A stretch of DNA of 64,000 nucleotides, taken from Mixta sp. Marseille-Q2659 (GTDB taxonomy: Bacteria > Pseudomonadota > Gammaproteobacteria > Enterobacterales > Enterobacteriaceae). Positions within the stretch are counted from its first letter, which is position 1. Every line of letters starts with the position of its first letter. A model generated the notes under the pieces. It made no database searches. It worked only from the letters and a program-made list of their open reading frames with translations, and was not told the DNA's origin. A program made the position numbers and the translations under genes. Shown in pieces: positions 719 through 11,216 of this stretch. The stretch spans positions 124,001 to 188,000 of the forward strand of contig NZ_CALNWY010000004.1 in NCBI RefSeq assembly GCF_940807255.1, written 5' to 3'.

Positions 719-1135
719 ATGAAACTGACGCCGTTACTTTTACTGGCGCTGCCCGCGCTGTGTCTGGCGCAGCAGCCAGGTAACAATATTGATATGCAGC
801 TGCAGGAATGTAAGCTGCACGCCAACAGCACTCAGGATAATGCCCGTTGCTATAGCGCCGCGATTCAGCAGTGGGATGGCGAACTGAATAAGCAGTATCA
901 ACTATTGATTAACAGCCAGCCGGAGAGCGTGCGCGGCACTATTAAGGCGGCGCAGCGCAGCTGGATCCAGTATCGCGACAGCTATAACACGGCGATCGCC
1001 AGCTTTTATCAGCAGCAGCAGGGATCTGTCTGGCCGCTGGTCGCGGCGGAAACCAAAATGAATGTGATCCGGGATAAAGCGATCGATCTTTACAGGCTAC
1101 GTACCAGTACCGATCTCGCTATGGCTCAGGAATGA
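719..1135 (+). CDS. LprI-like (DUF1311) secreted protein
   Basis: A 138-residue protein with a typical Sec signal peptide (residues 1-17, ending LCLAQ) followed by a small alpha-helical domain of the lysozyme-inhibitor LprI / DUF1311 type. Visible hallmarks are two cysteines (about 31 and 44), a central RSWIQYRD motif in the second helix and a C-terminal helical stretch. Family members are periplasmic or surface proteins; lysozyme inhibition has been shown for some, but the role of this one is inferred only from the family. AGGTGATCG just before the ATG serves as ribosome binding site. It stands alone between the oxidoreductase and a 460-base gene-free interval. A different DUF1311 function is possible. 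Confidence 0.75.
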   Translation: MKLTPLLLLALPALCLAQQPGNNIDMQLQECKLHANSTQDNARCYSAAIQQWDGELNKQYQLLINSQPESVRGTIKAAQRSWIQYRDSYNTAIASFYQQQQGSVWPLVAAETKMNVIRDKAIDLYRLRTSTDLAMAQE

Positions 1136-1595
1136 TGCCGTTCAACGCGCTTCGCCGACAAGCGATAAGAATAATTTGTTAAATTTGCTTTGTTAAACCA
1201 TTGGCGGGTTAGGGTTGATAATGTGATCAGGGCAAATTGTCAGACAGGATGAAGAGAGCTACCCAAATTCAATGGTTTGTAGCGAAAAAATAGGGGGATA
1301 AAAAAATAGCCCGCCAGCAGACGGGCCAAACACCAGGGAAATCTAAATTTTAACGCCTGATGAAATATTAGTTTGGTTTGATGTTCGAGCAAGTTTTTGA
1401 CGCTTTTATGCGCTAAAGCGTGAAAAAACTCACAAAAGATGCCAGAAAACTGGCGCCGATTTCTTGCTGAGTTGTTAAAAAATGACGAAATCGTAAGCGG
1501 TATTGATCTTTTATCCGTCCAGTGCGCTGCACGTAATCCGTGCTTGTTGGTTATTGCTGCTACCTTTAAGCAAGGTTTTCTGGAAGGAGCGCATA
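1136..1595. other. Gene-free interval before yliI with a putative minus-strand sRNA
   Basis: No convincing protein gene. The open frames here have no ribosome binding site or recognisable family. The interval holds a minus-strand intrinsic terminator with an ArcZ-like block just upstream (separate entry), a short GCCAG/CTGGC palindrome near 1441-1455, and presumably the yliI promoter, which I cannot place with confidence. Confidence 0.6.
1300..1358 (-). ncRNA. Putative ArcZ/SdsR-like Hfq-dependent small RNA
   Basis: On the minus strand, the block 1344 to 1328 reads AGATTTCCCTGGTGTTT. As I recall it, this nearly matches the conserved base-pairing region of ArcZ; the core TTTCCCTGG also occurs in SdsR. 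It is followed at once by a GC stem (GCCCG at 1326-1322 with CGGGC at 1313-1309) and seven Ts (1306-1300), a rho-independent, Hfq-type 3' end. A possible promoter lies upstream: TTGCTC (1392-1387), 16 bases, TAATAT (1370-1365), giving a start near 1358 and an RNA of about 60 nt. Seed and terminator are seen directly; promoter and identity are inference. True arcZ is normally next to arcB, so this would be a paralogue or an independent RNA. Confidence 0.5.
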
Positions 1596-2711
1596 ATGAC
1601 TCGTCGATTACTCTCTTTAGCATTAAGCGGGGCGCTGCTGCTCTCGGCGTCGCTGCAGGCCGCGCAGGTCACGGTGGAGCAGTTGCAGGATCGGCTTGAT
1701 CATCCCTGGTCGCTGGCTTTCTTACCCGATAACAAATCCCTTTTGCTGACTGAACGGTCGGGCACGCTGCGGCTGTGGCAACCCGGCAAGGGATTATCAT
1801 CGCCCGTTGGCGGCGTGCCTGACGTCTGGAACCAGCGTCAGGGCGGCCTGCTGGATGTGGCGCTGGCGCCCGATTTTAGCGACAGCCGCCGCGTCTGGCT
1901 CAGCTATACCGAAGCGGACAGCAACGGGCGCGCGGGCGCGGTGGTCGGCTACGGCAGGCTGAGCGACGATAATCGCCAGCTGGAGGATTTTAAAGTGGTG
2001 CTGCGCCAGCAGCCGAAGCTCTCCAGCGGCGCTAACCTTGGCACACGTCTGGCTTTCGACCGGCAGGGCTATCTCTGGATCGCCTTTGGCGACAATTTCC
2101 GGAGCAGCAGCTCGCAGGAGCTGGATAAGCTGCCGGGCAAGCTGATTCGCCTGCGGGCAGATGGTTCGGTGCCGGACGATAACCCTTTCGTCGGACGCAA
2201 AAATGCGCGCCCGGAAATCTGGGCTTATGGATTGCGCAATCCGCAGGGCCTGGCGCTCAACCCCTGGACGCAGCAAATCTGGGAGAGCGAACACGGGCCG
2301 CGCGGCGGCGATGAAGTGAATATTCCTGCAAAGGGGAAGAACTATGGCTGGCCGCTGGCGACCTGGGGCATCGACTATAGCGGCGATAAGGTGCCGGAGT
2401 CGCAGGGCGGTACCGCGCCTGGCACCGAGCAACCGGTCTGGTGGTGGAAAGCGTCGCCTGCCATCAGCGGCATGGCATTTTATAACGGCGACCGTTTTCC
2501 TGAGTGGAAAAACTCGCTGTTTATCGGCGCGCTGAAGGAAAAGAATCTGATCCGGTTAACCCTTAACGGTGACAAGGTGGTGGCGGAGGAACGGCTGTTA
2601 CAGGATCGTGGCGCGCGCATTCGCGATGTGCGCCAGGGGCCGGACGGCTATCTCTATGTGCTGACCGATGAAAGCAACGGCAAGCTGCTAAAAGTAGGGC
2701 TGAAACCCTGA
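1596..2711 (+). CDS. yliI: Periplasmic PQQ-dependent aldose sugar dehydrogenase YliI
   Basis: A soluble periplasmic beta-propeller enzyme that oxidises aldoses using PQQ (glucose/sorbosone dehydrogenase family). The chosen ATG at 1596 follows AGGAGC and opens a signal peptide (MTRRLLSLALSGALLL... cleaved near AA22-23); an in-frame upstream ATG at 1503 would bury the signal and lacks a ribosome site. The 371-residue length equals E. coli YliI. Propeller signatures include LDHPWSLAFLPD near the N-terminus, GGLLDVALAPDF, WAYGLRNPQGLALNP and ESEHGPRGGDEVN, the last contributing calcium and cofactor contacts in homologues. No PQQ biosynthesis genes lie in the window, so the cofactor may be imported or made elsewhere. 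Convergent with the HAD gene, with a tandem repeat between. Confidence 0.9.
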   Translation: MTRRLLSLALSGALLLSASLQAAQVTVEQLQDRLDHPWSLAFLPDNKSLLLTERSGTLRLWQPGKGLSSPVGGVPDVWNQRQGGLLDVALAPDFSDSRRVWLSYTEADSNGRAGAVVGYGRLSDDNRQLEDFKVVLRQQPKLSSGANLGTRLAFDRQGYLWIAFGDNFRSSSSQELDKLPGKLIRLRADGSVPDDNPFVGRKNARPEIWAYGLRNPQGLALNPWTQQIWESEHGPRGGDEVNIPAKGKNYGWPLATWGIDYSGDKVPESQGGTAPGTEQPVWWWKASPAISGMAFYNGDRFPEWKNSLFIGALKEKNLIRLTLNGDKVVAEERLLQDRGARIRDVRQGPDGYLYVLTDESNGKLLKVGLKP

Positions 2712-8295: not shown

Positions 8296-8383
8296 GACCG
8301 TGCCCGTAGCAGAATAGAGGCAGGCTATAGTGATGAGTGGCGCTTAAGAAAACATTAAGAAGAGGCCGTCTGAAATCAGGAAT

Positions 8384-8448
8384 AAAAAAACCCGCTAATC
8401 ATCGATTAGCGGGCTCCACAATTTGGGATTTCAAAGAAAAGCAGTGGC
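8384..8448 (-). ncRNA. rybB: Small RNA RybB (sigma-E dependent)
   Basis: On the minus strand the first 18 bases, GCCACTGCTTTTCTTTGA, match the conserved 5' end and seed of E. coli RybB as I know it. The RNA continues through TTGTGGAGCCC and ends in a CCCGCTAATC/GATTAGCGGG stem with seven Ts, about 65 nt in all. RybB is an Hfq-bound RNA that represses outer-membrane porin mRNAs during envelope stress through its 5' seed. Location beside ybjL is as in E. coli. The 5' seed is retained while the middle and terminator stem differ from E. coli, the pattern expected for a functional sRNA. Confidence 0.93.
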
Positions 8449-11198: not shown

Positions 11199-11216
11199 GT
11201 GTGAATTATGTCACAC
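11199..11216. promoter_or_regulatory. Perfect CRP core operator between grxA and ybjC
   Basis: GTGTGA-ATTATG-TCACAC contains an exact TGTGA-N6-TCACA with an extra symmetric base pair on each side. A near-copy of the left half (TATGTCACATTTTT) lies about 22 bases nearer grxA, forming a direct repeat. It starts about 27 bases upstream of the grxA start codon and about 155 bases from ybjC. The palindrome is seen; the function is inferred. Confidence 0.65.

Follow-up and report, generated by a model that had tools for sequence, protein, structure and literature searches.

The window, a 64-kb stretch of DNA, carries an LprI-like gene and a yliI-like sugar dehydrogenase gene, between which a candidate small RNA gene, designated type D, is found on the minus strand. 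The features of this locus are collected in Table 1. The sequence-only reading of the window had described a 17-base block followed directly by a GC hairpin and seven Ts on the minus strand, and all of these are present at 1344-1300. The block (1344-1328, minus strand) is AGATTTCCCTGGTGTTT. It was said to nearly equal the target-pairing region of ArcZ and to share part of its sequence with SdsR. Both statements hold: the first 16 letters are identical to E. coli ArcZ in the sequence printed in PMC7311995, with a difference at letter 17, and the SdsR of the same genome carries CATTTCCCTGG. No other place in the window matches the 16-mer when as many as two mismatches are allowed, and 0.04 matches are expected from shuffled sequences.

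Table 1. Positions in the window of the type D locus and its neighboring genes
Feature	Position	Strand	Remarks
LprI-like gene	719..1135	+	PF07007; convergent with type D
Type D sRNA (proposed, ArcZ seed)	1300..1358	-	about 58-59 nt; seed and terminator, start taken from the -10 element
T-run, seven Ts	1300..1306	-	transcription stop; putative Hfq-binding tail
Terminator hairpin TGGCCCGTC-TGCT-GGCGGGCTA	1307..1328	-	9 pairs, 6 of them GC
Seed AGATTTCCCTGGTGTT	1329..1344	-	identical to E. coli ArcZ, 16 letters
-10 element TAATAT	1365..1370	-	TAATAT in 4 of 6 type D loci, TAATCT in 2 of 6
-35 element TTGCTC	1387..1392	-	weak; 16-bp spacer; varies among type D loci
CRP-like palindrome TGTGAGTTTTTTCACG	1419..1434	-	center about 68 bp 5' of the putative start
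yliI-like sugar dehydrogenase gene	1596..2711	+	PF07995; divergent from type D

The terminator scan of positions 1130-1620 returned five rows, two of which are the type D hairpin, versus a mean of 0.4 in shuffled sequences. The fold of 1359-1301 has an energy of -19.8 kcal/mol with a z score of -2.37, and 5 of 200 shuffled sequences were equally stable. In this fold the terminator alone lies 3' of the seed, and a first hairpin is absent. The locus is intergenic, ends in a U7 tail and is without a conserved ORF. A coding gene was rejected since the frame of the 127-aa ORF on the minus strand is closed in three of the six type D loci described below. A terminator for the LprI-like gene was also rejected because the hairpin on the plus strand is followed by AAACACC and not by a T-run. 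The intergenic region gave no match to E. coli genomes using blastn. Tandem 7-base CCAACAG units are present 3' of yliI at about 2803-2888 on the plus strand.

Processed ArcZ (SraH/RyhA, RF00081) is described in PMC11331407 as a 56-nt RNA with the seed at its 5' end, formed by RNase E cleavage just before CCCUGGUGUUGGCGCA. The likeness of type D to ArcZ consists of the 16-nt seed, a terminator with a U-run and the GA/UUU-CCC context given for the RNase E site in the same review. The AGAUUUCCC context of the window copy is the same as that of E. coli, and RNWUU stands immediately 5' of CCC in four of the six type D loci (by eye, on the alignment). Relative to the ArcZ core CCCUGGUGUUGGCGCA after the cleavage site, CCCUGGUGUU is present in type D and GGCGCA is absent, being replaced by TGGCCC. 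Type D differs from ArcZ also in its promoter, in its position between the lprI-like gene and yliI rather than beside arcB, and in having no Rfam match, 5' domain or first hairpin.

Matches to the Rfam ArcZ model were not detected at 1000-1700 with E values up to 10, and the SdsR model (RF00111) did not match the type D interval over the same range of E values; these are the two models named for a check in the sequence-only reading. The locus is absent from the nine genome-wide matches of the Rfam search that found arcZ. That reading had also placed ArcZ proper elsewhere, next to arcB, and a separate arcZ was found beside arcB on C19 with 62.6 bits. The gathering cut-off of the Rfam ArcZ family is 66 bits, so Rfam annotation would miss this arcZ (L001/L080). 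The neighboring arcB was detected by NF008302 on a truncated fragment, with 820.6 bits (cut-off, 838). The sdsR gene of the same genome is at C12:69675-69772 (106.4 bits, RF00111). The identification of type D as arcZ was rejected from the absent Rfam match and the true arcZ on C19, and its identification as SdsR was rejected from the absent model match and the sdsR on C12. The segment ATTTCCCTGG is common to type D and SdsR (RyeB), and the two diverge after GG. Six weak Rfam matches (RsaH, SorY, suhB, anti-hemB, Trp_leader and sR45) are all far below their cut-offs and were rejected. At the gathering level, the only Rfam family recognized in the whole window is RybB, at 8382-8445 on the minus strand (61.9 bits). 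The seed of the arcZ on C19 is preceded by CCTT, not AGA.

Putative promoter and conservation of the type D locus

The promoter TTGCTC-16-TAATAT, as proposed from the sequence alone, was sustained in part. The letters are present and the -10 element is conserved; the -35 element is weak and variable, and this promoter was not called in the consensus promoter scan of 1130-1620. The -35 sequences of the other type D loci are TTGCCC (two loci), TCGCCA, TTGTCT and TTGTTC. Judging from the -10 element, transcription would start at A1358.

A TGTGA-N6-TCACG motif is found upstream in all six type D loci. The distance from the center of this CRP-like site to the last base of the -10 element is 61.5 bp in four loci, 62.5 bp in one and 51.5 bp in one, the last of which is shorter by a 10-bp deletion, about one helical turn. 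The pattern TGTGAN6TCACR is expected 0.14 times in the window and gave three rows, two of which represent a single palindrome at 11200. The site of type D is about 2-3 bp away from the usual class I CRP positions (about 2 bp when counted from the -35 element). CRP probably activates type D through the palindrome at 1419-1434, to judge from the sequence; the site could instead serve the divergent yliI promoter.

Relatives of type D were recovered by similarity to a 181-nt query, not by the seed, and were found in five of the seven other genomes of the genus. Counting the window copy, the seed block is kept in six of the eight genus genomes, which bears out the conservation in relatives looked for after the sequence-only reading. 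Two further matches to the 181-nt query (33 and 35 nt), both from genomes that do not belong to the genus, were rejected as type D. The sequence TTTCCCTGGTGTTTGGCCCG is common to all six aligned loci. Using comparison intervals chosen by the analyst on the alignment, the mean pairwise identity is 89.4% from the seed to the T-run, 85.0% from the -10 element to the seed and 74.8% between the CRP-like site and the -35 element; the outer flanks have values of 29.2% (upstream) and 30.2% (downstream). On the alignment, by eye, one pair of the hairpin changes from U-G to C-G in one relative (G007), and the outermost U-A pair is missing in three of the six loci.

The gene order is kept in G003 and G004, in which the gap between the lprI-like gene and yliI is 96 and 108 nt, respectively, versus 460 nt in the window, and thus there is no room for type D and its promoter. 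These two genomes form one clade on the YliI tree (98/100), so that a single gain or a single loss of type D explains the pattern. One change accounts for the distribution of type D on this tree, which is without a resolved root inside the genus. The 22-mer TTTCCCTGGTGTTTGGCCCGYC is found in one record, Mixta theicola, of a GTDB-based collection in which near relatives were possibly left out; the genome of the window is Mixta-like. Outside the genus, only one of the 387 genomes of the family has the type D 16-mer TTTCCCTGGTGTTTGG, and the terminator there is a different one. By these searches, type D looks confined to the genus. The copy of TTTCCCTGGTGTTTGG in L186 (G462, another genus), at around 1500 on the minus strand, is followed by a different hairpin and a T-run.

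Other loci with the ArcZ seed

There are exactly six copies of TTCCCTGGTGTT in the genome. Four of the six are followed by a GC-rich hairpin and a T-run, and these are designated A (arcZ), B (on C1), C (on C14) and D (on C4, the window); the 12-mer copies on C20 and C28 are without a GC-rich terminator. When the eight genus genomes were searched for the 12-mer followed by a T-run at a distance of 15-45 bases, types A, B and C were found in all eight and type D in six, and the reversed-pattern control gave 0 matches. Types A-C, as well as type E described below, were found by the exact seed, so their seed identity is no independent evidence; that of type D, found by 181-nt similarity, is.

Type B repeats GGCGCA and the first hairpin of ArcZ in a shorter form, and type C has GGCC..GGC and a different terminator. 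In both, a conserved -10-like element is located about 12-13 nt 5' of the seed. For this reason types B and C look like primary transcripts, the putative start sites of which would coincide with the start of processed ArcZ. In 5/5 Mixta genomes examined (L167, L168, L171, L172 and L173), type B is a short distance 5' of a zinc alcohol dehydrogenase gene on the same strand, and could also act as a leader of this gene. An IS1-like transposase gene is on the other side of type B in G000 (by eye).

Sibling sRNA sets, in which several genes have a shared pairing region, include OmrA/B, Qrr1-4 and LhrC. Several loci with one seed in one genome are a feature of such a set, and the genome has four. 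This supports type D as an RNA gene with the ArcZ seed that is distinct from arcZ, and suggests that A-D are separately switched RNAs that may share one target set. In contrast to OmrA/B, Qrr1-4 and LhrC, no such set, and no description of ArcZ siblings, was found for ArcZ in the literature searched, which consisted mostly of sources outside the subscription journals. The words paralog, copies, duplicat- and sibling are absent from the 2024 ArcZ review (PMC11331407), and the "arcZ homolog" of PMC10810281 is a single putative arcZ in Serratia. Papers on bacterial regulatory RNAs in which the seed sequence is printed, as judged by title and passage, are PMC7311995, PMC11331407 and PMC6749038. 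Neither yliI nor luxR is mentioned in the passages covered of PMC4070566, on the Hfq sRNAs of E. amylovora.

The survey was extended to the GTDB family, in which each genus was represented by a single genome (119 in total). The seed with a T-run was found in 68 of these genomes, and the reversed pattern gave one match in all 119. After one duplicate of the window locus was dropped from 121 match rows, 120 loci were obtained: 68 of the arcZ type, 41 others that pass the hairpin test and 11 that fail it. The 41 passing loci comprise 19 of type C, 8 of type E, 1 of type B and 13 others, with the limitation that the test is lenient and that several of the 13 fold weakly and may be due to chance. 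At least one passing non-arcZ copy is present in 23 of the 68 seed-bearing genomes. Rfam at the gathering level did not recognize a seed copy in any of 12 loci, including the arcZ of Mixta. In the order survey of 197 genomes, 2 of the 184 outside the family gave a match, one arcZ-like and one without a terminator. As the reversed pattern gave three matches in the 197, the one arcZ-like case is the only signal outside the family. Type E, a further ArcZ-seed type with TTCCCTGGTGTTGTTG.. ("GTTG" type), was found in five genera (L150, L151, L156, L178, L179, L182, L183 and L184). In L150, L179 and L184, it is located directly after a transporter-like gene (by eye), as if derived from a 3' UTR.

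The flanks of 40 seed loci were inspected, 31 from genomes of the family survey, 8 from Mixta and 1 from G218. A LuxR homologue is encoded within about 2.2 kb in 21 of the 40 and a LuxI homologue in 14, and the domains were checked with PF03472 on six LuxR examples and with PF00765 on one LuxI. By hand count, LuxR is encoded nearby at 19 of the 22 aligned type C loci (the 22 include 3 from Mixta), and at 2/18 of the other loci, 0/5 of type B and 0/8 of type E. The 19 LuxR-linked loci are upstream of luxR on the same strand (12), divergent (5) or otherwise placed (2). Consensus folding of the 22 type C loci gave eight pairs, two of which have a double change in one sequence, and this is weak support for the fold. 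Type C copies near luxR, and often luxI, occur in many genera; examples are L166:614-668 (G000, C14), L169, L170 and L146. In G000 and G001, type C is between an ornithine decarboxylase gene and luxR; an ornithine decarboxylase gene was not found at the type C locus of G003. In L165, the Rfam families YenS and Ysr283 are detected at 2778-2943 and 1392-1644, respectively, near the seed copy at a luxR/luxI locus. YenS (RF02374) resembles these loci as a small RNA near luxR/luxI, but in L165 it does not overlap the seed copy, the two being separated by about 300 nt.

At the type C locus of G218, eight primers for pPAR237/pPAR238 map, six of them exactly and two with one mismatch, and the pPAR237 primers are on the seed strand just 5' of the seed. 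As these are published primers for Pantoea ananatis, G218 is probably Pantoea. The pPAR237 and pPAR238 RNAs of P. ananatis are described in PMC6749038 as Hfq-dependent, beside eanIR and abundant at low cell density. They are relatives of type C, whose locus has the 12-nt seed of type D and likewise a terminator, and their reported Hfq dependence counts in favor of the reading of type D given below; they differ in that type C is beside eanIR, that pPAR237 is listed as 191 nt (PMC6749038) and that the locus is not that of the window. None of the 10 mentions of ArcZ in that paper links it to pPAR237. According to PMC7883899, pPAR237 and pPAR238 lack genetic analysis, and Hfq/ArcZ supports RpoS in P. 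ananatis. The primer mapping is evidence that the type C locus is expressed in Pantoea; it is not evidence for expression of type D in Mixta.

Proposed function and alternative explanations

It is likely that type D is a real short trans-acting sRNA that works like processed ArcZ, from a promoter of its own that is probably aided by CRP. The sequence-only reading had offered a choice between a second RNA whose targeting resembles that of ArcZ and a new RNA that reached the same seed by convergence. This remains the best-supported reading, with type D conserved in six of eight genomes and arcZ separate. The tests by Rfam model, synteny and hairpin place type D outside ArcZ, but it probably works like processed ArcZ; it is probably a minimal ArcZ of about 58 nt in which the seed is fused to the terminator, and Hfq binding is predicted. 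Since type D has the same seed as processed ArcZ, an AU-rich leader and a U-tailed terminator, it should act as ArcZ does. The AU-rich leader of about 15 nt would expose the seed, and the Rho-independent terminator directly after the seed would provide a U-tail that binds Hfq. Hfq would then present UUUCCCUGGUGUU for pairing with the mRNAs of the ArcZ regulon, and this pairing would repress or activate ArcZ-type targets. RNase E may trim the RNA before UUUCCC. Through the putative CRP-helped promoter, a carbon/energy signal could engage ArcZ-type regulation, beyond the oxygen signal transmitted via ArcA. The seed is used in 330 of 335 RIL-seq interactions of ArcZ, as given in the 2024 review (PMC11331407).

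The Mixta rpoS leader contains GGGGAAATCC, which is complementary to GATTTCCC (by eye). For duplexes with the rpoS leader and the flhD 5' region, none of the RNAs A-D beat shuffled RNAs. With type D, 59 of 60 shuffles (rpoS) and 50 of 60 (flhD) paired equally well, and with A, B and C the corresponding numbers were 8 to 43 of 60 for the two targets. This nonsignificant pairing test would fit a real RNA whose seed has another job, either as a decoy for the sites or RNAs paired by ArcZ and SdsR or with its own non-ArcZ targets, and, with ATTTCCCTGG present in SdsR, more than one RNA makes use of the seed core. However, the match spans all 16 letters of the ArcZ core and thus extends past the segment found in SdsR, and one genome has four loci at which the 12-nt core is accompanied by a terminator; a different job for the seed is thus considered unlikely.

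We regard it as quite improbable that the transcript is just a by-product, divergent or antisense, of the yliI promoter region, ending at the terminator without any function in trans. Type D does lie within the region upstream of yliI and is missing from the genomes in which this region is short, but the seed and the terminator are its most conserved parts, and a plain terminator has no need of the ArcZ 16-mer. The lack of two ArcZ features, the 5' domain and the first hairpin, would be expected of a decaying arcZ duplicate left by a past rearrangement. This origin is highly improbable, given that the sequence from the seed to GGCCCG is unchanged in six genomes, the outer flanks of which are about 30% alike, and that the terminator stem is retained. 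Chance resemblance is scarcely credible: short motifs do recur, as with the 12-mers lacking a GC-rich terminator on C20 and C28, but 0.04 matches are expected in the window, the locus is conserved in six genomes and the control gave 0 matches in eight.

Type D as a short RNA that works like processed ArcZ would be one case of a wider arrangement in which the ArcZ seed is a reusable module, placed on varied promoters and terminators throughout the Enterobacteriaceae: type C at luxR/luxI, the alcohol dehydrogenase-linked type B, the "GTTG" type E and the CRP-linked minimal type D. A single regulon, to which the general stress response belongs, would thereby receive signals of oxygen, carbon and cell density by way of separate same-seed RNAs. 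We judge the arguments for and against this module to be evenly balanced. The location of the type C seed just upstream of luxR provides a hypothesis for a junction between Hfq and quorum sensing in Pantoea-like bacteria. If such same-seed RNAs exist beside ArcZ, strains of Mixta, Pantoea and other genera in which arcZ is knocked out would still control part of the regulon, and ArcZ-type control would answer more signals than oxygen.
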